From assembly GCA_947629005.1 (NCBI GenBank), contig CANRCD010000008.1, forward strand, positions 1 to 64,000: 64,000 bases of DNA. The letters run 5' to 3'. Made by a program: the position numbers and the translations under genes. Shown here one piece after another: positions 1 through 42,781 of the stretch. Numbering within the stretch: position 1 is the stretch's first letter; each line of letters begins with the position of its first letter. Origin of the DNA: an uncultured Clostridia bacterium. GTDB taxonomy: Bacteria; Bacillota; Clostridia; UMGS1883. The notes under the pieces are model-generated. The model saw only the letters and a list, made by a program, of their open reading frames with translations, did not search any database and was not told where the DNA came from.

Positions 1-170
1 CCTTAAACGCGTTGAGGGGTTTGGGGGCATCGCGGAGCCCCCAAGACTTTTGGTTCTTTTGGTCACAAAAGAACATAGGCATAAAATTAAATACGACTGC
101 CCGCGCCGCAGGCGCGTCCGCGAAGCGGCGGACGTGTGGAGGCAGACAGCGCGGGCGACATAATTATAAG
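1..170. repeat. Hairpin-rich dispersed repeat, copy 1 (truncated by window edge)
   Basis: This stretch matches the repeat at 283-452 almost base for base and is cut by the window start. It carries the same modules in order: a GGGGGC/GCCCCC hairpin, the palindrome TTCTTTTG-GTCA-CAAAAGAA, a GCGCC/GGCGC hairpin and a GTCCGC-rich hairpin, then a tail ending GACATAATTATAAG. Short ORFs across it are low-complexity and differ between strands, so it is not read as coding. A third copy lies at 40408-40602. Confidence 0.85.
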
Positions 171-214
171 GCACAGGCAACATAATTACAAGGCGCGGGC
201 GGCATGATTATATC
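149..214. repeat. Three tandem 22-bp repeat units
   Basis: Three consecutive 22-base units (149-170, 171-192, 193-214) share the pattern GCGCGGGCGACATAATTA followed by a short variable end. A single further unit closes the second large repeat at 431-452. The tail of the dispersed element appears to have been locally multiplied here. The units are contiguous, without spacers, so this is not a CRISPR array. Confidence 0.6.
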
Positions 215-256
215 GCGGCGCCTGCGGGCTCTCAATGTGCCCCTACCGCCCGTCGT

Positions 257-452
257 GGGGATTTTTAAGGGGCCCGCAGGCCCCTTAAACGCGTTGAGGG
301 GTTTGGGGGCATCGCGGAGCCCCCAAGACTTTTGGTTCTTTTGGTCACAAAAGAACATAGGCATAAAATTAAATGCGACTGCCCGCGCCGCAGGCGCGTC
401 CGCGAAGCGACGGACGTGTGGAGCCATACAGCGCGGGCGACATAATTACAAG
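257..452. repeat. Hairpin-rich dispersed repeat, copy 2 (complete)
   Basis: This is the most complete copy in the window. Visible hairpins are AAGGGGCC/GGCCCCTT (267-286), GGGGGC/GCCCCC (305-324), TTCTTTTG/CAAAAGAA (336-355), GCGCC/GGCGC (385-397) and a GTCCG/CGGAC stem (about 399-415). From 257 to 409 it differs from the copy at 40408-40560 at only three positions. No credible gene lies between 1 and 570. The structure suggests a non-coding mobile or REP-like element; function unknown. Confidence 0.85.
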
Positions 453-570: not shown

Positions 571-1023
571 ATGTATAAAAAAATCCTTCTCATCAACGGG
601 CCCAACATGAATATGCTGGGCATACGCCAGCCCGAGATTTACGGGCGGGACAGCCTCGAAACCATAGAGCGGCTGACGCGTGAGCGCGCGGCGGAGCTGG
701 GGTACGAGTGCGAGTGCTTCCAGTCGAACTACGAGGGGGCCGTGGTGGAGGAGATCCACCGTGCTTACGGGCGGGTGGACGGTATAGTCATGAATCCCGC
801 CGCCTTCACCCACTACAGCTACGCCGTGGCCGACGCCGTCAGCGCCGTGGGCCTGCCGGTGGTGGAGGTTCACATGAGCGATATACACAGCCGTGAGACA
901 TTCCGCAGCCGGAGCGTCATCCTGCCGTACTGCATAGGGCAGGTGGCCGGCCACGGCAAGGACAGCTACCGTATTGGCGTGGAGAAGCTGATAGCGTATT
1001 TGGAGGGCAAGGAAAATGTATGA
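571..1023 (+). CDS. aroQ: Type II 3-dehydroquinate dehydratase
   Basis: This cytoplasmic enzyme of the shikimate pathway dehydrates 3-dehydroquinate to 3-dehydroshikimate. The 150-residue length fits the small dodecameric type II family. Diagnostic segments are present: an N-terminal NGPNMNMLGIRQPEIYG (flexible loop with the catalytic Arg/Tyr region), NPAAFTHYSYAVADAV in the middle, and EVHMSDIHSRETFRSRSV carrying the substrate-binding His and Arg. The start is the ATG at 571 after a modest GGAG. Its last 8 bases overlap the start of the M24 homologue, and the order aroQ / M24 / efp is the common Firmicute arrangement. Confidence 0.96.
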   Translation: MYKKILLINGPNMNMLGIRQPEIYGRDSLETIERLTRERAAELGYECECFQSNYEGAVVEEIHRAYGRVDGIVMNPAAFTHYSYAVADAVSAVGLPVVEVHMSDIHSRETFRSRSVILPYCIGQVAGHGKDSYRIGVEKLIAYLEGKENV

Positions 1024-28779: not shown

Positions 28780-30351
28780 TTATATTTCCACGACGCCGCC
28801 CCAATTATCATTGCCTATATACACCCACGTCGGCCGAGGCGGCGCAGGGTCGGCAAAGTGATTGTTGCGGAAGGAAATCATCTTAAACATCCAATAATCG
28901 AGGAGATTTACCTGCAATAATTCCTTGCCCTCGAACCACAGTCCCAGAGAATGATCGTAACTAAGCGTGGCGCAAGGCAAATAGCCGTTGTTGAAAAAAT
29001 GAAATATCATTCCGTCTTTGACCCAATCCGCGACGGGCATTGACCAATCGCCTAAGTCTATTACCCAGTCCTCGGTGAAATCTATCATTACTGAGCCGGC
29101 GTGCAGAGGGGCTTCAAAATCGTCGTCGCCCACGTCTGACGGAAGTTTTACGATGCCGTGGGGCGGGATAACGCGCCAAATGTAACGGTTTCCGTCCTTC
29201 TCCAAATGTACGTTGCCGGCGTAAATAGAGCGCAGCTGTGCGTCCGCCGACAATTTATTTTCAGTCACGGCCCCGTCGGCAAGTTTTTGAGCGGTCACGG
29301 CGCCGTCGGCGAGCTTTTGAGCAGTCACCGCCGCGTCGCGGATTTTGTCGGTGTTTATGGCGTTGTCAGCGATTTTTATGCTGGTAACGCACCCGTCCGC
29401 AATCTTATAATGAGTGACGCTCCCCGCCTGAAGTTTGGTTTCGCTGATGGCGTCGGCGGCGATTTTTCCGTTGGTAATGGCCTTGTCGGCGATTTTGGCG
29501 GTGGTAACGGCGCCGTCGCGGATTTTGCCCTCGGTCACGGCTCCGTCCTGAATTTTGGGCTGAGTAACGCTTCCTGCCTGAAGCTTGTCCGCGCTGACGG
29601 CCTTGTCGGCCAGCTCCGCGGTGTTGACCTGCCCGTCCATAATCATGGACGAATCAATCTCTCGCCAGTGCGTTTCCAGCTTATTGTTTTCGTATACCGT
29701 GACAAGCGCCTTGTTTTTTGTATCGGCGGGATTGATTTTGTTCAGCGTAACGGCCTTTTCGGCGATTTTGGCGGTGGTAACGGCGCCGTCGCGGATTTTA
29801 CCCTCGGTCACGGCTCCGTCCTGAATTTTCGGCTGAGTGACGCTCCCCGCCTGAAGCTTGTCCGCGCTGACGGCCTTGTCGGCGAGCTTGGGCTCGGTAA
29901 CCGCGTCGTCAGGCAGCATAGTGGATTTAATCGCGTCGCCTATTTGTTCATCGACGTATTTTTCCCACACATTGCGGGGCAGGGGAGGCACGTCCGCGCC
30001 GGTGACGGTTCCGGCAAGTACCTTGAGCCGCGCGGTATCGGTGGTTATACGGATATTGCCGCCGTCGCGGCCAACGGCTCCGAGCGTCAGGAAGCCGTCC
30101 TCGGTCAGAAGCGCCTCGGGAATTACTGCGGCGGCCGTGCGGCTGTCGTTCTCCGCCTGCGTGAGCGGCAGGGCGTAGCACGGCCCGTCGTTCACGCTGA
30201 GGGTCAGCTCCTTGCTGAGGCCGTCCCAGTCGCCGGTAAAAACGGCGCTCAGCTCGTAATAGTTTTTGCCTCCGCTGACAATGGCCGCCGGCTCCGTCAC
30301 ACATATACGGTCGTTGTCCACGCGGACGCTTACGGTTAATTTGCTGCTCAT
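28780..30351 (-). CDS. Phage tail-fibre/baseplate protein with tandem repeats
   Basis: A 523-residue protein. Residues 1-135 resemble the N-terminal baseplate-attachment domain of clostridial phage tail proteins. Residues about 145-375 consist of short repeats of the pattern G/K-A-V-T-x-x-K-I/L-A/Q-D, typical of trimeric tail-fibre shafts. The C-terminal 140 residues, beginning near NRYIWRVIPPHGIVKL, have no recognised fold and may be the receptor-binding tip. GGAGGAAAAA precedes the ATG. It is the first gene after the SOS-box promoter; no other tail, portal or capsid gene is in the window. Confidence 0.85.
   Translation of the reverse strand: MSSKLTVSVRVDNDRICVTEPAAIVSGGKNYYELSAVFTGDWDGLSKELTLSVNDGPCYALPLTQAENDSRTAAAVIPEALLTEDGFLTLGAVGRDGGNIRITTDTARLKVLAGTVTGADVPPLPRNVWEKYVDEQIGDAIKSTMLPDDAVTEPKLADKAVSADKLQAGSVTQPKIQDGAVTEGKIRDGAVTTAKIAEKAVTLNKINPADTKNKALVTVYENNKLETHWREIDSSMIMDGQVNTAELADKAVSADKLQAGSVTQPKIQDGAVTEGKIRDGAVTTAKIADKAITNGKIAADAISETKLQAGSVTHYKIADGCVTSIKIADNAINTDKIRDAAVTAQKLADGAVTAQKLADGAVTENKLSADAQLRSIYAGNVHLEKDGNRYIWRVIPPHGIVKLPSDVGDDDFEAPLHAGSVMIDFTEDWVIDLGDWSMPVADWVKDGMIFHFFNNGYLPCATLSYDHSLGLWFEGKELLQVNLLDYWMFKMISFRNNHFADPAPPRPTWVYIGNDNWGGVVEI
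29486..29905 (-). repeat. Internal duplication in the tail-fibre shaft
   Basis: A segment of about 135 bases at 29486-29620 recurs with few changes at 29752-29886. In the protein this duplicates a run containing ADKAVSADKLQAGSVTQPKI and its continuation. Such repeats can change shaft length by recombination. Confidence 0.7.
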
Positions 30352-30545: not shown

Positions 30546-31427
30546 TCATTTGACGGCCGTCCGCAGCAGCTCTTCCGCAACCTTCGCGCCGATAAAGATG
30601 GCGCCGCGGTCGTTGGGGTGCGTTCTGTCGAGCTTGGGACTATGGTAAAACAGTCCCTCGGCCTCTTTTCCCATGCGGACGTAGGCTTCGCTTGTGTAGG
30701 CATGGAGGTCGATAAGCCCCGCGCCCGCCTCGCGTGCGGCCTCGCGTGCGGCCTCCGCGTAGCTGTCAAGGTAGTCGTTCAGCCGCCCGTCCACGTAAAT
30801 CAGGCGGTTTATGGGCGTGCATATAACCGGCCTTGCGCCGCGCTCCGCCGTTAGGCGGGCAAGCCTTATCAGGTTGTCCTTATAGCCGCCGAACGGCTTT
30901 AAGAAGCTCTGCTTTTGGTCGTTGTGGCCGAACTGAATCGCCACTGTGTCGCCTCTGCGCAGGCGGCTTTGCACCGGCGGAAAGTGGCAGGCAAGGCAGT
31001 CGGCTGTGTGCGTACCCTGCTCGGCGTGATTGCTGAGGGCATATCTGTCGCCGAGAAACAGCCCGAGCGTCTGGCCCCAGCCGCAGCAGCGCGTCAGCTC
31101 GTCCCCGCCCGCGTACTCTTGGTCGCAGACGGTGGAATCGCCGAGGCAGTATACGACCGGCAGCTCTGCTGGCTCGATTTCGGCGCTTACGCGGCAGCCG
31201 CCGCTTATTTCAAGCTCTATCCCGCCGTCCCTGTAGGGAGGGCGTTTTTGAAAATCGGCCTCCCGCACGGCGAGGGCAAAGCGGAAGTCTCTTGCCTCGC
31301 CCACGCGCAGGGGAAAGCTCCTCAGCAGAAAGCGGCGGTGGTTTGCCGTCACGGTGAGCGACGTGTTTTCCCGTGCCTCGGCGTGCAGCCGGAGCAGATA
31401 CTCGCCCTCGCCGAGAGCCCACCTCAC
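30546..31427 (-). CDS. SGNH/GDSL esterase (rhamnogalacturonan acetylesterase-like)
   Basis: A 293-residue protein starting at GTG 31427, which overlaps the stop of the large lyase gene (GTGA) behind GAGG. An N-terminal beta-rich part (about 1-95) precedes an SGNH hydrolase with the nucleophile Ser in CLGDSTVCD, block III QFGHND and the catalytic Asp/His in DRTHPNDRG. Arrangement and context match CE12-type acetylesterases that remove O-acetyl groups from galacturonate of RG-I. No signal peptide is visible, so it may act on imported oligosaccharides, complementing the secreted esterase domains upstream. Confidence 0.86.
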   Translation of the reverse strand: MRWALGEGEYLLRLHAEARENTSLTVTANHRRFLLRSFPLRVGEARDFRFALAVREADFQKRPPYRDGGIELEISGGCRVSAEIEPAELPVVYCLGDSTVCDQEYAGGDELTRCCGWGQTLGLFLGDRYALSNHAEQGTHTADCLACHFPPVQSRLRRGDTVAIQFGHNDQKQSFLKPFGGYKDNLIRLARLTAERGARPVICTPINRLIYVDGRLNDYLDSYAEAAREAAREAGAGLIDLHAYTSEAYVRMGKEAEGLFYHSPKLDRTHPNDRGAIFIGAKVAEELLRTAVK

Positions 31428-34400
31428 AGCTTTACCTCGCCGGCCTCGCCGAGGCTCAGCCACTCGTTGGGGCTGAGCGTGAGGGCAGTCTCGCCCGAGG
31501 AGAGCTCCGCCGTAACGGTGCGCTTTTCGGTGGAGCCGTTGTAAAGGCGCAGCTTATTGCCGTTCCTTAAAACGTACACTCCGTTAAGTATATCCGTAAC
31601 CTCGTAATATCCGTCCGTTTTTATCAGGCCCAAATCCGCCGCCGCGCCAACGAACAGCGAGCAGAGCTCCCGTGCTCCTGCAAAGGAGATGTGGAGCTTG
31701 TCGGCCATCTCGCCCGCCTCGGCGTTCCAAAGCTGATAATTCCGCGAAACGTAGTCGCGGCCCAGCTCGGCAAAGCGCGCGCCGGCTAGGGCGTAAAGGT
31801 CCACGTAGGCGCAGCCTGTTTCGGCGGCAACCTCGGCCACAGCGTCAAAAAAACCGCCGTTGTTGCCGTTGGGGGCCTCGTGCTCTCCCGCGCTGCCCCA
31901 AGTGTAGCCCACCGAGGGCTGAGGCTTCACAAGCACGGGCACGATTCCTTTTTTGCCGCACTCGTCTATCATGTAGCGCAGAGCGTCCTTCATAGTGTCC
32001 CTGCTCTTGTCGTCGCGGTTGCGGTCGTTTATGCCGAACTGAATAACGAGCAGGTCTCCCTTTTCGCCCTGTGCCAGAACCGTCGGGAAGATAACGTCCT
32101 TCCAGTCGCGGGCCCAGTCGCCGCTGGAGGCCAGATTGACGACCTCGGCGGAGTCGTCCGTGAATCGCGGCAAAAGCTGCGCCCAGCCGGTGCGCCGCTC
32201 TCCCGCCGGAATTTCGGCCTCGCGGACGTCGGGTATAACAGGGTAGTAATTGCAAAGGGTGGAGTCTCCGGCCACGAAGATACGCTTTTTGCGCGGCAGC
32301 ACGGAGGGTGATTTTACGGCCTCGACGGCTTTAAGCCGCGTAGTGCGCTGATCGACCCTGACCGCCGCGCCGCCGTCGGTCTTAAAGCCCCTGAAAACGT
32401 GAACCGTGCCCTCCGGCACGGCCACCGTGCCGTACATATCCACGTTGGCCCCGACAACCTGCGAATTGACATAGATGTTGCCGCGCTCGGCGTCGGCCTT
32501 GGTAAAGTAAAGGTCGTACTCTCCGGCGGGCAGGCCCAGCTCGTACTCGCCCGCCGCTGTGTCGATGCCGCCCTCGGGGGCGAAGCGGCGCACGGGAGTG
32601 ACCTCCGCCTCGGCGGGGCCGGAGGCCGAAATATTGATTTTGCCGCCCTGCGCCTCGGCGCGGACTATGGCCTCGCTCCCGCCCGCAAGCACGGTTTCGC
32701 CGTTCACGGCCACCGCCGCGCCCTCGGGGGAGTATATGGCCACGCTGAACTCATCAAATCTGCCGTAGGGGCGCACATCGAAGGCGTAATCCCCCTCGAA
32801 GGAGGCGGCCATCGAGTACCCGTCGGTGATTCGCGCCGCGAGGTCAGGCACACCGGCGAGGCCCGCGGCCACGATTTTGGCTATCTCAAACGCTCCCTCA
32901 TAGGAGTAGTGCGTGTTGTCGGCCACACCGTCGGGGTATTTTTCGTATTCGCCCGCGCCCGCGTAAAGGTGCAGCCGCTTTGAGGCCTCGGGGCCGAGGG
33001 CGTTTTCGAGCGCACGGCTTTCGGCGTTCACGTCTATGAAGGGCAGGCCGTACTTTTCGGCCATATCGCGCTGAATGGTGTCGTAGCTTGTTCCCCCGTC
33101 CGGCTCGGGTATGAGGCCGGAGCCTTCGTCAAACCAGCGGGGCTGAGTGTGCGAGGCGAGAATGGGTTTCAGCCCCTTGGCGAGCGCGGGGAGGACGTAC
33201 TCGTTTTCGAGCATGACCTCAAAATCTTCATGGCTGAGATAGCGTTCCGGCTTGTTCCACGCGCCGTCGTTGTGGCCGAACTGGATTATCACATAGTCGC
33301 CGGCGCGGGCGTCGTTAAGTATGGAGCCCCACCGGCCCTCGTCAAAAAAACTTTTCAGACTTCTTCCTGCCATGGCGCGGTTTTCCACCGTCACCGACCC
33401 GTCCATAAACAGCCCCAGCATCTGTCCCCAGCCCGCCTGCGGGGCGTAGCTGTCGCGGTACGACTGCGCGGTTGAGTCGCTCGCAATGAAGAGCGTCACC
33501 GGCTCCGGCGTTTTTTCGGCTGTTTCGGCCCCCGCCGCAAGGTAGGGCAGGGGCTCGCTTACGTATGTCATTTCAGGCAAATCTCCTCTTTTAACGGTAA
33601 TTTCGCCGCGCTCGCCGTCCCAGTCAACGATAAGGCCCAGCGCCTCGCCGAGGGCGCGCAGCGGCACGAGGGTGCGGCCGTTCACAATGACGGGCGGCGT
33701 TTCCATGGTTTTGGCCTCGCCGTTCACGGTGAAGCTCGCCGAGCCGACCGTCATTACCGCCGTTTTGTCGCCGAGCGCGGCGGTGACAACGCCGTTTTCG
33801 TAGTCCACCTTTGCGCCGAGGGCCTCTGCTATAAAGCGCAGCGGCACGAGAGTGCGGCCGTTTTCAACGTAGGGCGCGGCGTCGAGGACGCACGGCTTGC
33901 CGCAGACGCTCGCGGCGGCCGAGCCCGCTTTGAGCCGCGTCACTCCGGCGATGTAGCCGCCCAAATGCGGCGGCTGGTTATAGCTGGAATTCTGCCACAC
34001 AACGCCCATGCGGTAAATGTGGTCGCTCATCAGCGGCGGCAGGGCAAATTCCGTGGGAATAGTCGTGGTATAAAGGCGCAGGCACGAGCTGTCCGCGCTT
34101 CGCCACAAAATCTCCTCGCGCCAGTCGCCGAGGATGTCCGCCTGAAGGCAGGGGTTGGACTTGCTGCCGTTGTTCGAGACGCAGCCGTCGCGCGAGGCGT
34201 CGAGCAGCGAGCTTTGCGCCCCGTCGTCGTCAATCTTGAAAATCGACGTACCGTCCAGCAGCTCGTCGTACAAGTCGCCGTCCCAATAAATGCGGAAGTT
34301 CATGGAATTGAACGGCAAATCAAGGTTTTCGCCGAGGGAGTTTATCTTTCCGGCCCCGCTTCCGGCCCAAGCGATATAGCTGCCGCCGAAGGGGCCCACG

Positions 34401-36076
34401 CTCGCGATAAGGCCGCGGCCGGTATCCTTGCCGCCTTCGCGTGCGTGGAGAATTTCGCCTGTTTTCGCGTCAAAAACGGTAAAGCCGAATTTCTGCGCCT
34501 CCGTTTGGTCCTCGTGCACGGCGAACAGCTCCAGCCCGGGACGGTTCGGGTCGAAATCGCCGAGGTGCATTGCGTCGCCGTGGCCCATGAAGGAGCACCA
34601 CAGCACGCTGCCGTCGTCGTCCAGCGCGAGCGCGCCGGTGAAAATCTCGTCGCGTCCGTCGCCGTCGCAGTCGCCCACGCTGATGTTGTGGTTGCCCTGA
34701 CCGATGTATTTTTCGTTTCCGGCGTCTTGTGTATCAAAGCGCCAGAGCTTGGTTATTTCGTTGTTTTTAAAGCCGTAGGCCGCAATCACCGTGCGGCCCG
34801 GCCCCTTGCCTGCGCGGCCGCCGTAATAGCCGCGCTGAAAAACGACGTAAGGGTTCTCGCCGTCAAGGTACGCCACGCAGGCGTTGTAGCGTTCGGAGCG
34901 GTTGCCGTAATCGTCGCCGAAAACCAGCGAGCTCCCCGGGCCGTTCTGCGGGTCGAAGTCGGTTTTGGCCCGCAGTGCGCCGGTTTCGCCGTCGAACACC
35001 GTCAGCCAGATTGGGCCTTCGAGGTTTTTTCCGGCCCAGTTGTCCGTCCAGACGGCGTTTGCGTCGCCTATGACCGCTCCCGTGCCGTCAACCGTGCCGT
35101 CGGCGGTGCGGGTAGCGACCTCGGCTTTGCCGTCGCCGTCGAGGTCATAGACTACAAACTGAGTATCGTGTGCGCCCGCGCGTATGTTGGGGCCCATGTC
35201 CACGCGCCAGAGCCTTGTGCCGTCAAGCTCAAGAGCGTCAAGGTACACGCGGCCCGTTTTGCCCTGCTGCGAAGCGTCCTTCGAGTCGGAGGGGTCCCAT
35301 TTGAGGACTATCTCCCACTCGCCGTCGCCGTCAAGGTCGCCCACGGAGGCGTCGTTCGCGCTGTATGTCACGCGGCCCGCGGCGTTCTTGGCGGTCTCAA
35401 GGGCCTCGTCCGAGGGGGCGGCGCCGCTGTCGGTCAGCGAAAACGCCGTAGCGTCGGCCTTTTCGCTAAGGGTCAGCGCGCCGTCGGGCGAAAGGGCGAG
35501 GTAAAGCCCGCTCTGCTTGCCTTTTATGTACGTGTCGCCGGCTTCCCCCTCTATGGCGAATTTCTGATTGTCGCCGCCGTTATAGCCGTATACGCCAACC
35601 GATGCCCCCACAGCGGTGGACTGGGCGTTCACGTCCAGCGTTTTGCCGTCCGCGCCGATAAAGACGGAGCTTCCGTCCGCGTCGGTGTATACGCTCCACT
35701 CGGCCCCCGCCGAGGGCGAGGCTCCGCCCGCGCCGAGAGTTACACAGCGGAGATCCTTTTTAAGGTCGCCGTAATCCTCGGTCGGGACGGAGAGCGGGAT
35801 TTCGAGATATTGGCCGTTCCACACCGCGACGGGGGTTCCGTTCACGCTGTATTCGGCGGAGCCGTCGGCCCCGACGTCGGTGTAGTTGGTGAGCTCCGTC
35901 GTCGCGATGAGCTCTCCGTTCCGGCTGACGGTATAGCTTTCCGCGCCGCTTTCCATCGGCCACGAAAGGAACACGCCCTCCTCGGTTTTCACGGCCACGG
36001 GAGCGTTGTGCCCGTCGGCCAGCGCGGTCGGCGCAAGGGCCAGCAGAGCCGCCAAGGCTATCAGAAACCTTTTCAT
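31424..36076 (-). CDS. Secreted multi-domain pectinase: PL11 rhamnogalacturonan lyase, stalk domain and two SGNH esterases
   Basis: A 1550-residue protein with a signal peptide (1-21). A fibronectin-like domain (about 25-90) comes first, followed by a beta-rich insert resembling a ricin-type lectin (about 100-215). The PL11 eight-bladed propeller spans about 230-715, with Asp-rich calcium loops such as GDLDGDGEWEIV and DLDGDGKAEV and a GPFGGSYIAWAGSG segment. A copper-amine-oxidase-like stalk domain follows (about 725-830; two NGRTLVPLR motifs). SGNH domain 1 spans about 860-1090 (Ser868, GHND at 934-937, Asp1053/His1056). A beta-sandwich (about 1100-1230) separates it from SGNH domain 2 (about 1265-1490; Ser1272, GIND at 1348-1351, Asp1459/His1462). 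Inferred action: cleavage and deacetylation of RG-I outside the cell. GGAGG precedes the ATG. Confidence 0.9.
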   Translation of the reverse strand: MKRFLIALAALLALAPTALADGHNAPVAVKTEEGVFLSWPMESGAESYTVSRNGELIATTELTNYTDVGADGSAEYSVNGTPVAVWNGQYLEIPLSVPTEDYGDLKKDLRCVTLGAGGASPSAGAEWSVYTDADGSSVFIGADGKTLDVNAQSTAVGASVGVYGYNGGDNQKFAIEGEAGDTYIKGKQSGLYLALSPDGALTLSEKADATAFSLTDSGAAPSDEALETAKNAAGRVTYSANDASVGDLDGDGEWEIVLKWDPSDSKDASQQGKTGRVYLDALELDGTRLWRVDMGPNIRAGAHDTQFVVYDLDGDGKAEVATRTADGTVDGTGAVIGDANAVWTDNWAGKNLEGPIWLTVFDGETGALRAKTDFDPQNGPGSSLVFGDDYGNRSERYNACVAYLDGENPYVVFQRGYYGGRAGKGPGRTVIAAYGFKNNEITKLWRFDTQDAGNEKYIGQGNHNISVGDCDGDGRDEIFTGALALDDDGSVLWCSFMGHGDAMHLGDFDPNRPGLELFAVHEDQTEAQKFGFTVFDAKTGEILHAREGGKDTGRGLIASVGPFGGSYIAWAGSGAGKINSLGENLDLPFNSMNFRIYWDGDLYDELLDGTSIFKIDDDGAQSSLLDASRDGCVSNNGSKSNPCLQADILGDWREEILWRSADSSCLRLYTTTIPTEFALPPLMSDHIYRMGVVWQNSSYNQPPHLGGYIAGVTRLKAGSAAASVCGKPCVLDAAPYVENGRTLVPLRFIAEALGAKVDYENGVVTAALGDKTAVMTVGSASFTVNGEAKTMETPPVIVNGRTLVPLRALGEALGLIVDWDGERGEITVKRGDLPEMTYVSEPLPYLAAGAETAEKTPEPVTLFIASDSTAQSYRDSYAPQAGWGQMLGLFMDGSVTVENRAMAGRSLKSFFDEGRWGSILNDARAGDYVIIQFGHNDGAWNKPERYLSHEDFEVMLENEYVLPALAKGLKPILASHTQPRWFDEGSGLIPEPDGGTSYDTIQRDMAEKYGLPFIDVNAESRALENALGPEASKRLHLYAGAGEYEKYPDGVADNTHYSYEGAFEIAKIVAAGLAGVPDLAARITDGYSMAASFEGDYAFDVRPYGRFDEFSVAIYSPEGAAVAVNGETVLAGGSEAIVRAEAQGGKINISASGPAEAEVTPVRRFAPEGGIDTAAGEYELGLPAGEYDLYFTKADAERGNIYVNSQVVGANVDMYGTVAVPEGTVHVFRGFKTDGGAAVRVDQRTTRLKAVEAVKSPSVLPRKKRIFVAGDSTLCNYYPVIPDVREAEIPAGERRTGWAQLLPRFTDDSAEVVNLASSGDWARDWKDVIFPTVLAQGEKGDLLVIQFGINDRNRDDKSRDTMKDALRYMIDECGKKGIVPVLVKPQPSVGYTWGSAGEHEAPNGNNGGFFDAVAEVAAETGCAYVDLYALAGARFAELGRDYVSRNYQLWNAEAGEMADKLHISFAGARELCSLFVGAAADLGLIKTDGYYEVTDILNGVYVLRNGNKLRLYNGSTEKRTVTAELSSGETALTLSPNEWLSLGEAGEVKL

Positions 36077-39252: not shown

Positions 39253-39294
39253 TAATCTGTAAAATGCCGATATAATTTGCAGGGAGGCGTTTTT

Positions 39295-40098
39295 ATGCGA
39301 AAAACACAGGTAAACCGCTACCGTGACTTTGTGGATTTCAACGTGATACAGTACGGACACGAGGACTGTAGGCCAAACTACTCGATTGGTGATTTTGTGC
39401 GGTCGAACCACCTTATCCACTACGTTCACCGCGGGCGCGGCAGATACGTGTGCGGAGGCAAAACCTACTCCCTTTCCGCCGGCGACGCCTTTCTCATATA
39501 TCCGGGAGATGTGACATTGTATCAAGCCGACTCCGCCGAACCGTGGGAGTATAGCTGGGTGGAGTTCAGTGGGGCGGCCGCCGGTAAATATCTCTCCTCC
39601 ACGGGCTTCACGCGGGAGCGGCCCGTCATGCGCGGGGTGCACGGAGCCGCCGGCCCCATGCTGGCGCTTTCGGCCACCTCGCCCGATAACCCATACGAGC
39701 TGCTGGGCCGCCTTAACGAGGCGCTGGCCTCCTTTGTGACGGGCGAGCCGCAGCCGGTTTCCATGGCGGACGAATACGTAAAATACGCCCTTAATTATAT
39801 CCACACCATACATTACCGCAGCCCCGTCACCGTGGGCGAGATAAGCAGCTACGTGGGCATAAACCGCAGCTATCTCAGCCGCCTTTTCAAGGAGAAGCTC
39901 GGCGTTTCGCCAAAGCGATATATTACCGAGTTCCGCATGAAAACCGCCGCCCGCCTGCTCGAGGAAACGAACCTCACCATAGGACAGGTGGCTCTCAGCG
40001 CGGGCTTTGAGGATCAGCTCTATTTTTCGACCAGCTTCAAAGCCTTTTTCGGCCATAGCCCCACCCGCCATCGAGCTATGGCGAAGGCCGCAAAGTAG
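39295..40098 (+). CDS. AraC-family regulator of the RG-I operon
   Basis: A 267-residue regulator starting at ATG 39295 behind AGGGAGG; a TTG at 39277 overlaps that site and is rejected. The N-terminal cupin (about 20-130; LSAGDAFLIYPGDVTLY) probably senses a sugar. The two C-terminal HTH motifs are EISSYVGINRSYLSRLFKEK and QVALSAGFEDQLYFSTSFKA. It is divergent from GH105 and the rest of the pectin operon, the usual position of a local activator. Confidence 0.92.
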   Translation: MRKTQVNRYRDFVDFNVIQYGHEDCRPNYSIGDFVRSNHLIHYVHRGRGRYVCGGKTYSLSAGDAFLIYPGDVTLYQADSAEPWEYSWVEFSGAAAGKYLSSTGFTRERPVMRGVHGAAGPMLALSATSPDNPYELLGRLNEALASFVTGEPQPVSMADEYVKYALNYIHTIHYRSPVTVGEISSYVGINRSYLSRLFKEKLGVSPKRYITEFRMKTAARLLEETNLTIGQVALSAGFEDQLYFSTSFKAFFGHSPTRHRAMAKAAK

Positions 40099-40129: not shown

Positions 40130-40200
40130 TGTGTAATGTAATAATGTCGCCCGAGCGGTCTGCCCCACACGCCGTCCGCTTTGCGGACGCGCCCGCAGGC
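40130..40200 (-). repeat. Inverted partial copy of the dispersed repeat tail
   Basis: Read on the minus strand this segment matches the 3' tail of the repeat at 1-170: GCGTCCGC...GCGGACG hairpin, then GTGTGG, GGCAGAC, and GGGCGACATTATTA. It faces the full copy at 40408-40602 in opposite orientation, so similar tails close both ends of a segment of about 475 bases. Confidence 0.7.
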
Positions 40201-40306: not shown

Positions 40307-40367
40307 CGCCCCTCATTCGGCCTTTCGGGCCACCTTTACCCCCCTCCGAGGGAAGGTAAGGCGAGGA
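40307..40367. repeat. REP-like module (CCCCTCATTCGG ... CCGAGGGAAGGTA)
   Basis: The order CCCCTCATTCGG, GGCCTTTCGGGCC hairpin, CCACCTTTACCCCCC and GAGGGAAGGTA follows the pattern of repetitive extragenic elements common in Oscillospiraceae-type genomes. I recognise the pattern from general knowledge and cannot count copies outside this window. Confidence 0.5.
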
Positions 40368-40378
40368 GATGTAAATAT

Positions 40379-40417
40379 AAAAAAATCCCACGTAAAATTA
40401 CATTCACGGGGATTTTT
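40379..40417. repeat. Inverted repeat AAAAATCCC ... GGGATTTTT
   Basis: A 9-bp arm AAAAATCCC (from about 40381) pairs with GGGATTTTT ending at 40417 across an AT-rich loop. It lies immediately before the full dispersed-repeat copy and overlaps its first bases. Confidence 0.5.
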
Positions 40418-40602
40418 AAGGGGCCCGCAGGCCCCTTAAACGCGTTGAGGGGTTTGGGGGCATCGCGGAGCCCCCAAGACTTTTGGTTCTTTTGGTCACA
40501 AAAGAACATAAGCATAAAATTAAATGCGACTGCCCGCGCCGAAGGCGCGTTCGCGAAGCGGATGGCGTGTGGAAGCACACCGCATAGGGCATAATTATAC
40601 AT
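40408..40602. repeat. Hairpin-rich dispersed repeat, copy 3
   Basis: From 40408 to 40560 this copy is collinear with 257-409 with three mismatches. It keeps the AAGGGGCC/GGCCCCTT, GGGGGC/GCCCCC and TTCTTTTG/CAAAAGAA hairpins. The tail (40561-40602) is more diverged but still ends in GGCATAATTATAC. The region 40099-40729 holds no credible gene. Confidence 0.85.
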
Positions 40603-40622
40603 CATCAACCTATGGCAAATAA

Positions 40623-40729: not shown

Positions 40730-42781
40730 TCAGTCCTTTATCAGCGGCATGGGTTCGTCCCCGCCGAGTCCCTGCACGGCCAGATTGTACGCCGCCGCAT
40801 AGGCCTCGCCGTAGGTGAGGGGCCGCCGAGGAGCGAAGCTGCCGCCGTCGCCGCTCATGATTCCCAGCCCCTGAAGCACGGCCGCGCCGCCGACGCCGCC
40901 CACAAAATCAGCCTCGTCGGCAAATTTCACGGCGAATACGTCAAGGCCGACCAGCGGTTTCCAGCCGAGAGCCGTCATTATCAGCTCCGCCGCGCCCTCT
41001 CGGGACGGAACGTCGGAATTTCTTTCCCTGTCCACATCGGCCCCGCCGGTTTCAAAATAGTAATATCGGGACGGCATATTGCTTATGTTTATGGCTTGGC
41101 GCACAAGGCTCATAAAGTCGTCGCAGGCTATGTTGTCGTCAAACGAGTAGCCGCCGGGGACATAGATGTCATTTTCGCGCAGAATGTCGTAAAACGGCCA
41201 CGCCCAGTGCTCCTTTTCGGCGGGCTTTTCGGCGGCGGCTTCGGGGGCCGCGCCCGTGTAGTCTATGGCCGAGCCGTCCTCTGCCTTGACGGCGTAAAGG
41301 TCGGCGTTGGGCTTAAGCGCGTAGCTTAATACGGGCTTGCCCTCGGCGCTGTAGCTGTAGACAAGCTCGGCGGTGAAATTGTTTTTCGCCGCCTCAAGGG
41401 CGCTCACCATCGAGGCGGGAGTGATTATTTCGGCCTCGGGGTCGCTTTCGGAGAAGTAGACCACCTTGCCGGTGCGCTTCGACACATTCACGCTCTTGCT
41501 GTCGTCGGGGTATGGAATTCCGCCGATTACGCGCTGCCAGCTTTTGCGGAAGAAGGTTTTGCTGCCCGCGCCGTTATTCGTTTCGGCGTAGGCCGAAAGG
41601 TCGCGCGTTTTGGCCATAAAGCTTGTGGCGGCGCGGGCGCAGTCCTCGTCCGAAACGGGGTTTTCGGGAACGCTCCACATATCGTCGTAGGAGATGTCCA
41701 CCGACTTAAGCTCGCCGCTTATGCCGTCGAACCTAATGTCGGCGCTGCCGCGCGCCTCGTCCGCGCCCCATTCGCAGCGGGCCGAGGCGTAGTAGGTCGT
41801 TTCGGCCCCTTTGGTATAGGAATAGTAATTGACCGATAAGTCGTATTCCGCCGGAAGGTCAAGCTCGGGCAGAGCGCGGAGCCTCGCGGCAATATCGTCC
41901 TTCGAGATAAGCCCCTTCATTGCTTCGACGGCGGCCTGCTCCTTGGGGCTCAGCGACTTGCGCAGGGCTTGGCCCGCGTTCGAGCCGCCGCCGCTGTACT
42001 CCTCGGCGGCCGCGTCCATATCCATAGAGGCGGAGGAGTTGAATATGGACGAGCGGAAGTATCCGCGCTCAAAAATCGAGCCGTCGGCCGCGTCCGCGCG
42101 GAGCCCGTTTTGCGGCACGTAGATAGGGAAGGCCACGGGCTTCGCCTCGGCTTCGGCGTCCGTATACTCGGGCCAAAACGTGTGGTACTCAAGCTTCAGC
42201 GCGCCCTCGGCGAGGGCCTCCAGCCCCTGCTCGGGAGTGAGCGAGGCCGAGCCGGAGAAGGTGTTTTCCGTATCGTAGCTGAGGCTGTAATCCCGCACCT
42301 TGCCGCTTTGGCGGTTAAAGTAGACGGACGCGCCGTTGTCCTCCACGCGGGCGCCGTTCTCGCGGCGCACAAACGCGGCGCGGCGGCCCGTGCTGTTTTC
42401 CTCGTCAAGCGTGAGGCTCGCGGCGGCCTCGGGGGCTGTGCGGCCCACAAAGTCCTTCGCGCTCTGCCACAGAGCGGCGCGGCGGACGGTTGAAAGCCCG
42501 CGCTCGGCTTCGTTGTCGTCGTATCGGCTGTATTCGGTGATAAGGCCGTCCTTCGTCACGGTTGCCTGAAGGCTGCCGCTTCCGTCGGGCTTGGACCAGC
42601 GCAGCTCGTAGCCGCCCTCGTAGTCGTTGTAGCTGAACTCGCTCAGCTCCTCGGGCACATCTATGGCCTCCTTTACGAGGACAATGGCGTCCTCGGGCGA
42701 GAGGGCCGCCTCCGCCGCGGGCGAGGGTACGGCGGGGATAAGCATTGCCGCCGCGAGCATGGCCGAAATCATTTTTTTCAT
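40730..42781 (-). CDS. Secreted YcdB/YcdC-repeat protein with SLH-like C-terminus
   Basis: A 683-residue exported protein with a signal peptide (about 1-26, ending PSPAAEAA). Residues about 27-220 and 290-500 form two YcdB/YcdC-PepSY-like alpha/beta repeats (LSPEDAIVLVKEAIDVPEEL; VSDEDCARAATSFMAKTRDL; SKRTGKVVYFSESDPEA). The last about 150 residues have weak SLH-like units (HWAWPFYDILRENDIYVPGG; PRRPLTYGEAYAAAYNLAV), suggesting wall attachment. Family members are found with sporulation and envelope functions, but the role is unknown. The promoter (42834-42860) looks ECF-type. AAGGAGG precedes the ATG. Confidence 0.78.
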   Translation of the reverse strand: MKKMISAMLAAAMLIPAVPSPAAEAALSPEDAIVLVKEAIDVPEELSEFSYNDYEGGYELRWSKPDGSGSLQATVTKDGLITEYSRYDDNEAERGLSTVRRAALWQSAKDFVGRTAPEAAASLTLDEENSTGRRAAFVRRENGARVEDNGASVYFNRQSGKVRDYSLSYDTENTFSGSASLTPEQGLEALAEGALKLEYHTFWPEYTDAEAEAKPVAFPIYVPQNGLRADAADGSIFERGYFRSSIFNSSASMDMDAAAEEYSGGGSNAGQALRKSLSPKEQAAVEAMKGLISKDDIAARLRALPELDLPAEYDLSVNYYSYTKGAETTYYASARCEWGADEARGSADIRFDGISGELKSVDISYDDMWSVPENPVSDEDCARAATSFMAKTRDLSAYAETNNGAGSKTFFRKSWQRVIGGIPYPDDSKSVNVSKRTGKVVYFSESDPEAEIITPASMVSALEAAKNNFTAELVYSYSAEGKPVLSYALKPNADLYAVKAEDGSAIDYTGAAPEAAAEKPAEKEHWAWPFYDILRENDIYVPGGYSFDDNIACDDFMSLVRQAINISNMPSRYYYFETGGADVDRERNSDVPSREGAAELIMTALGWKPLVGLDVFAVKFADEADFVGGVGGAAVLQGLGIMSGDGGSFAPRRPLTYGEAYAAAYNLAVQGLGGDEPMPLIKD

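Follow-up and report, generated by a model that had tools for sequence, protein, structure and literature searches.

Background

Palindromic repeats between genes are commonly regarded as simple hairpins. The BOX-type repeats are built of modules in a fixed order, contain stem-loops, are intergenic, and occur also as truncated and mosaic copies. In pseudoknots of the telomerase-RNA triple-helix type, a U-rich first loop lies opposite an A-U stem, and integron attC sites carry GTTRRRY at their 3' end. REPs include the GTAG and CGTC superfamilies (PMC3733652), and REPINs are two inverted REPs acting as one unit (PMC3116915). The STAXI motif has a conserved pseudoknot and may be single-stranded DNA (Weinberg 2010, PMC2864571), while structured DNA of the attC kind has RYYYAAC at its 5' end (OTH-22-1, PMC8632094).

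The repeat described here lies in the window, which is bases 1-64000 of contig C8 of the 2,039,511-base draft genome G000. Like BOX it is modular and intergenic, with stem-loops in a fixed order and with truncated and mosaic copies, but it has a probable pseudoknot in its third hairpin, the core, and the BOX sequence is one that we take to be unrelated. A relative in a sister genus resembles MITEs and foldback elements in being 561 bp long with inverted ends of about 75 bp and no gene. It differs from them in that no target duplication or parent transposon was recognised, its ends are folded cores and its interior is made of two covarying domains; the window copies differ further in having a single end. 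As in telomerase RNA, the core has a U-rich first loop opposite an A-U stem, but its helix S1 is much shorter, and it has no A-rich third loop and no known link to a reverse transcriptase.

The likeness to REPs and REPINs lies in short intergenic palindromes, in inverted outward pairs (in Rhodospirillales MAGs) and in the lack of coding capacity. The differences are the small number of copies, the added pseudoknot pairing, a core without the GTAG or CGTC tag, and no RAYT partner found. STAXI shares a conserved pseudoknot with the core but is tandem and often near DNA-handling genes, and the present core has no Rfam match. Identity with integron attC was rejected, as the core has GTT on its 5' arm and AAC on its 3' arm, the reverse of the attC box order. 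No description of the core was recognised in a literature search that covered mostly papers free of subscription.

Copies of the repeat

The features of the window and of the reference relative are listed in Table 1. The initial annotation had placed three copies at 1-170, 257-452 and 40408-40602. All three are present, the last extending to 40603, and its count of 3 differences between copies 2 and 3 in the first 153 positions is correct. Over all 196 positions these two copies differ at 23, because the D part diverges. Copies 1 and 2 have 5 differences over 170.

Table 1. Features of the repeat, its neighbouring genes and the reference 561-bp relative. Positions are those of the window unless a locus is named; A1 and A2 are the within-genus and cross-phylum alignments.
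Feature	Position	Strand	Details
Copy 1	1-170	+	97% over 170 bases; 5' side cut by contig start; core TTTTGG at 48
Copy 2 (complete, A-B-core-D; used as reference)	257-452	+	sequence comparison
Hairpin A, copy 2	264-289	+	11-bp stem, loop CGCA; two-sided changes at 4/11 pairs; 96.5% of cells paired
Hairpin B, copy 2	303-326	+	8-bp stem directly 5' of core; two-sided changes at 3/8 pairs; 91.7% of cells paired
S1a (GAC), 5' strand of proposed pseudoknot helix	327-329	+	loop complementarity, covariation
TTTTG linker, proposed third strand	330-334	+	invariant in 17 A2 rows, partly by construction (TTTTGG was part of the search patterns); register test
Core hairpin S2	335-356	+	GTTCTTTTG 335-343, loop GTCA 344-347, CAAAAGAAC 348-356
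S1b (GTC), within core loop	344-346	+	proposed to pair with S1a
D module	381-452	+	outer stem 381-388/431-438 around two hairpins
Type II dehydroquinase gene	571-1023	+	PF01220; copy 2 upstream
AraC-family regulator gene	39277-40098	+	converges on copy 3
Solo D module, facing away from copy 3	40137-40196	-	29-nt arms 40165-40193/40544-40572, 90% complementary
Copy 3	40408-40603	+	blastn similarity ends at 40573; D part diverged
Gene with YcdB/YcdC repeats	40730-42781	-	PF16244; converges on copy 3
561-bp foldback element, sister genus g4	L056:2099-2659	-	reference locus; relatives aligned

The genome-wide count that had been proposed as a check extends well beyond the window. A similarity search of the ~2.04-Mb draft gave 24 matches, which correspond to 15 distinct places once eight matches of the palindromic stem A to its other strand were dropped and two overlapping matches on contig C23 were merged. 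Two places sit at contig starts (copy 1 on C8 and one on C7); the repeat thus coincides with assembly breaks, and the 15 places are therefore a lower bound. The core hairpin is present at 10 of the 15, in degenerate form at one of them. The copy at C14:39899 occupies the same locus in genome G004, so not all copies are young.

Within the genus, 7 of 8 genomes gave matches to the element, and in a wider sample of relatives 9 of 60 did; both counts include G000. A strict pattern for the TTC class of core was found in one of 398 genomes sampled from the window's phylum, the window's own genome; this class is therefore lineage-specific within that phylum. The exact 34-nt core had no matches among the named genomes, and the window copy had none in Rfam, phages or plasmids. 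At the gathering threshold none of 4227 Rfam families was found in the window, with nothing near threshold in its first 600 bases, and on 29 other loci only one tRNA and one TwoAYGGAY were found. In a Pseudomonadota genome, a TwoAYGGAY RNA (Rfam RF01731) at L246 1342-1464 (+) precedes a core by ~36 nt, which is probably coincidence.

Hairpins and covariation

Four to five consecutive hairpins had been noticed, and in copy 2 there are five in order: A, B, the core and two in D. Copy 2 contains three perfect 8-bp hairpins, compared with a mean of 0.04 (maximum 2) in 2000 block shuffles and of 0.09 (maximum 3) in 196-nt tiles of the window. RNA-fold z-scores of the repeat are -4.9 on the plus strand and -6.0 on the minus strand. 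The module order A-BC-D is constant in the copies compared. Some places consist of D alone or A alone, and the one on C23 is chimeric, joining part of A to part of D. D modules or D fragments without a core are seen as the solo D of the window and, in G000, at C7:50727 and C23:3031-3069. The composite may have taken up D, which would then be a distinct small family of repeats.

Covariation within the genus was assessed in alignment A1, with 17 copies, 36 stem pairs and 500 shuffles as control. Standard pairs account for 94.5% of cells, against 34-57% when the partners are slid by 1-3 columns. Two-sided changes occur at 9 of the 36 pairs versus 4.4 in the shuffles, none of which reached 9; four are in stem A, three in stem B, one each in S1 and S2, and none in the D hairpin. 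Stem B is unpaired in part in several copies, and only 74.5% of cells are paired in the S1 columns, for which register is partly responsible. In G005 the core stem is altered to CTAC...GTAG in a compensatory manner. The stem covariation that had been suggested as a test is therefore present, and the case that the initial annotation had named as refuting it, only three copies with stems not kept by compensatory change, does not apply: there are more than three copies, and compensatory changes are present.

The core as a probable pseudoknot

The core is probably an H-type pseudoknot, in which the loop of the hairpin would pair with the bases preceding TTTTGG. Named genomes were searched with the pattern TTTTGGTTCTTTTGNNNNCAAAAGAACA, in which neither the loop nor the bases upstream are constrained, and 82 stretches were found. 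Of these, 46 are in Rhodospirillales MAG JANYFG and 3 in other Rhodospirillales MAGs, the remainder being in Clostridia, Glassbacteria, Patescibacteria (one titled Kerfeldbacteria), Lewinellaceae and Bacteroidaceae. The pattern TTTTGGTTNCTTTT matched 0 of 12 core-bearing genomes, which does not indicate absence since the window-type core is one base too short for it. The upstream and loop bases of S1 are GAC/GTC in the window and AAC/GTT in other gut Clostridia. Elsewhere they are GAA/TTC and AAA/TTT in Glassbacteria, GGC/GCC in a Bacteroidaceae MAG, and CAG/CTG and GTAC/GTAC in Patescibacteria.

A sister class of cores has TTAC (or TTCC, TTTC) replacing TTC. Its own pattern found 16 stretches in viral contigs and matched 12 of 395 Bacteroidota and 6 of 299 Pseudomonadota genomes; the reversed-pattern control gave none in the latter two samples. 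S1 of this class is often 6 bp (CTTGAT/ATCAAG, CTTGAC/GTCAAG, CTTGAA/TTCAAG). The cores cover five phyla and viral contigs. Two invented core variants, compared with plasmids by BLAST, matched only weakly (best E 0.4), and the result was not used.

An S1 of at least 3 bp within the permitted register was present in 43 of 53 hand-picked representative cores, where loops shuffled among the entries gave a mean of 17.3 +/- 3.2 and a maximum of 29 in 3000. Without the CTTGA families this was 34 of 43 (mean 14.0, maximum 23) and in the TTC class alone 15 of 17 (mean 5.0, maximum 11). When every distinct entry of the same loci was taken, with none picked, the count was 56 of 78 against 24.5 +/- 3.9 (maximum 38 in 3000). 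In both the 53 and the 78 the entries are related by descent and not independent. S1 is shorter than 3 bp in 10 of the 53 and 22 of the 78. In the Rhodospirillales it has 4 bp in the commonest upstream variant (32 loci) and 2 bp in eight rarer variants (18 loci), and it has at most 2 bp in three core variants of G002, which include copies split by another repeat. In the cross-phylum alignment A2 (17 rows) all three S1 pairs have two-sided changes, and the covariation score of S1 and S2 together is 0.263 versus 0.070 in the shuffles, none of 500 being as high.

S1 is retained in 42 of the 53 cores when all inner S2 pairs are kept. In 32 of these 42, the number of spacer bases between S1a and TTTTG is one less than the number of inner S2 pairs. 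With one inner pair the spacer is zero in 14 cores and not zero in 5, versus 0 and 18 with two (Fisher p 2.4e-6, related entries included). This coupling between spacer and S2 holds the TTTT opposite the AAAA strand, and the register would be that required by a U.A-U major-groove triple helix.

Relatives with inverted ends

In the sister genus g4, stem B and core are found at both ends of the 561-bp element, inverted, the two ends being ~75 bp long and 80% alike. The interior is found in either orientation relative to the reference core. In a sample of the family, 10 of 21 genomes match this element at E 1e-8; in g4, 5 of the 7 show interior sequence, and G000 and G004 match in the core only. 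Nine ORFs of at least 40 aa touch the element, of which two (56 and 40 aa) are wholly inside and the rest, of at most 401 aa, extend beyond its ends. It contains no transposase gene, as is expected of a MITE. Its fold has a z-score of -13.7, to which the inverted ends contribute. Searches of Rfam (nothing near threshold), phages and plasmids gave no match to the element, and a 20-base motif of its domain II was not found in viral contigs.

The left-end core of the element keeps S2 through the compensatory change GTCC/GGAC, and its S1 has only 2 bp in all four copies read. No clear target duplication was seen by eye in the flanks of four copies of this type. In a third genus, g5, the match covers the 80-bp end only, with an S1 of at least 3 bp in 3 of 4 such ends read. 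Core pairs within 400 nt of each other in the Rhodospirillales MAGs are inverted and outward in 29 of 29 cases, so that these have the two inverted elements per unit of a REPIN, and Bacteroidota genome G812 has three foldbacks of ~230-510 bp with a core at each end.

Neither the 561-bp domains nor a second inverted end was found in the window's genus. The window copies are not REPIN-like pairs, and they lack the terminal inverted repeats of MITEs, which the 561-bp relative has; beyond their own palindromes there is only the outward D at copy 3. We read the window copies as solo-end derivatives, in which one end of stem B and core would be joined to A and D.

Genomic context

The repeat is intergenic and occurs in both orientations. 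The two genes that flank copy 3 lie on different contigs in G004, where the element is absent, and this split of the locus leaves no clean empty site. In G005 a diverged element adjoins the same YcdB/YcdC gene. Relative to the upstream gene, the 14 Clostridia matches in g4 are sense in 4 cases, antisense in 7, unknown in 2 and 'inside' in 1, and the 30 Bacteroidota sites are sense in 7, antisense in 12, unknown in 2 and 'inside' in 9; these counts use crude longest-ORF gene calls, and several of the 'inside' labels are probably spurious. A 3'-UTR element of fixed sense is disfavoured by this mixed orientation. In the Rhodospirillales, 14 of 51 matches lie between converging genes.

Nature of the element

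The explanation that we favour, with moderate confidence, is a composite non-autonomous mobile element of the REPIN, MITE or BOX kind, which has an end of stem B plus core and is mobilised in trans. The window copies are read as solo-end, composite relatives, that is, as REPIN/MITE-like non-autonomous repeats. Of the three options in the initial annotation (structured RNA, REP-type element, non-autonomous transposable unit), the last two together fit best, the repeat being dispersed, intergenic, gene-less and related to the 561-bp inverted-repeat element, although membership in the GTAG/CGTC REPs did not stand and structured RNA remains a rival. The repeat is more than a plain REP: it is of a known general kind of non-autonomous mobile repeat, with an end whose covarying pseudoknot is common to several phyla.

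The working part would be the terminal end of stem B and core, the same as both termini of the 561-bp element. When the DNA, or a transcript, is single-stranded, this end may fold with hairpin B stacked on the pseudoknot and S1 on S2, so that the TTTT linker would occupy the major groove of the stem formed by AAAA and TTTT. A trans-acting enzyme would recognise the fold and copy or move the element, and recombination between copies could then give rise to solo ends, mosaics and local rearrangements. Against a mobile element it counts that no enzyme came out of the Y1 loci, that no clean empty site or target duplication was recognised, and that the window copies have no inverted ends. The copy at C14:39899 that G004 shares, and the cores whose S1 is shorter than 3 bp, also weigh against this reading.

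A structured RNA is the rival that survives best, although we think it unlikely. The repeat would be a small RNA or mRNA-end element, with a pseudoknot that protects or presents the RNA, and would have spread through an RNA intermediate, as a SINE-like retroelement, or by plain duplication. Evidence bearing on this comes from both domains of the 561-bp element. In domain II, with 16 sequences compared, there are two-sided changes at 15 of 45 predicted pairs and, on the core-sense strand, 25 G.U versus 3 A.C cells, where the antisense strand in its own fold has 5 versus 14. In domain I (8 sequences) the bias is on the opposite strand, with 31 versus 4, and the plus strand in its own fold has 18 versus 12. 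Since predicting a fold on a given strand biases the result towards G.U on that strand, the comparison of both strands is the informative one. This strand-specific wobble argues for a folded single strand, and the register of TTTT and AAAA is compatible with an RNA major-groove triplex. However, G.T wobble in single-stranded DNA could yield the same bias, which is weak in the window's own family (10 G.U versus 5 A.C). The mixed orientation to neighbouring genes speaks against a cis-acting RNA, and neither core nor domains match an Rfam family. Given the strand-specific wobble, each half of the 561-bp element seems to read domain, stem, core outward. The two domains are likely to be inverted paralogues, judging from a 19-nt match at mirrored places and from the strand test, and the element with its domains may be a new family of structured RNA or single-stranded DNA in its own right.

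An ordinary REP or REPIN mobilised by a RAYT, a Y1 HUH transposase, is improbable. The inverted pairs of the Rhodospirillales MAGs are REPIN-like, and Y1_Tnp matches occur in 6 of the 8 genomes of the genus. Y1 open frames of 250-305 aa, comparable in length to RAYTs, are present in G005, G010, G012 and G015. The initial annotation had suggested looking for a partner transposase, and the scan of Y1/RAYT loci gave none: 0 of 39 carry a core nearby (some overlap; ~1.5 kb on each side where the contig allowed; 17 further Y1 matches, which had no locus, are outside the count). The core-richest genome, G454, has no Y1 gene, nor have G833 and G456, and the sole Y1 match in G000 is an IS200-like fragment at a contig end. 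A RAYT/Y1 partner was rejected on the 39 loci and on G454. The GTAG or CGTC tag is also absent from the foot of the hairpin, where the rows of A1 and A2 show S1a-TTTTGG, and the CGTC in copy 2 falls inside a D stem. In copy number the comparison with REPs is mixed: the repeat is palindromic and intergenic, as they are, but lies at only 15 places.

Least probable is a host sequence that does not move, whose palindromes would resemble terminators or organise the chromosome, being maintained for their function and increased in number by recombination. In its favour are the frequent position between converging genes (copy 3 and the Rhodospirillales matches) and the divergent copy beside the same YcdB/YcdC gene in G005. 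Against it are near-identical copies far apart, foldback relatives with inverted ends, both orientations and a strict core pattern in a single genome of the phylum sample.

A further proposal is tentative and rather doubtful. It is an undescribed class of selfish elements in at least five phyla, a bacterial analogue of SINEs, whose 3' end would be a compact triple-helix pseudoknot (S1-TTTTGG-S2a-S1b-S2b) and whose half-units of structured domain, stem and pseudoknot would move as folded RNA or single-stranded DNA, the pseudoknot being what a polymerase or recombinase acting in trans recognises. Repeat families that look unrelated, in Clostridia, Bacteroidota, Pseudomonadota, Patescibacteria and Glassbacteria, have at their tip a covarying pseudoknot whose preferred register is that of a putative triple helix. 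The pseudoknot core could serve as a structural signature for collecting such elements and as a target for finding the enzyme that moves them.

Other repeats and features

The loop of stem B is split by a second repeat in some copies of G002 and G007, for example L039 (G007:C153) and L047 (G002:C13). A more abundant palindromic repeat of the GTAGGGAGCGCCGACTCGGCGCTCC type adjoins several copies (e.g. L004, L005, L025 and L033; C14:44513-44584), and a stretch beside C14:44179 has matches at more than 10 places in G004. At ~40312-40370 of the window, an intergenic repeat-like stretch, CCCCTCATTCGGCC...GGGCCACCTTTACCCC...GGGAAGGTAAGGCGAG, adjoins copy 3, and similar strings flank copies in G004.

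Away from the repeat, the window has repeats spaced by multiples of 30 bp at 29269-29910, within an ORF at 28780-30351 (-) of 523 aa with no Pfam match. An ORF of 1550 aa at 31424-36076 (-) combines rhamnogalacturonan lyase family 11, copper-amine-oxidase-N-like and GDSL lipase domains, and probably encodes a fused pectin-degrading enzyme.
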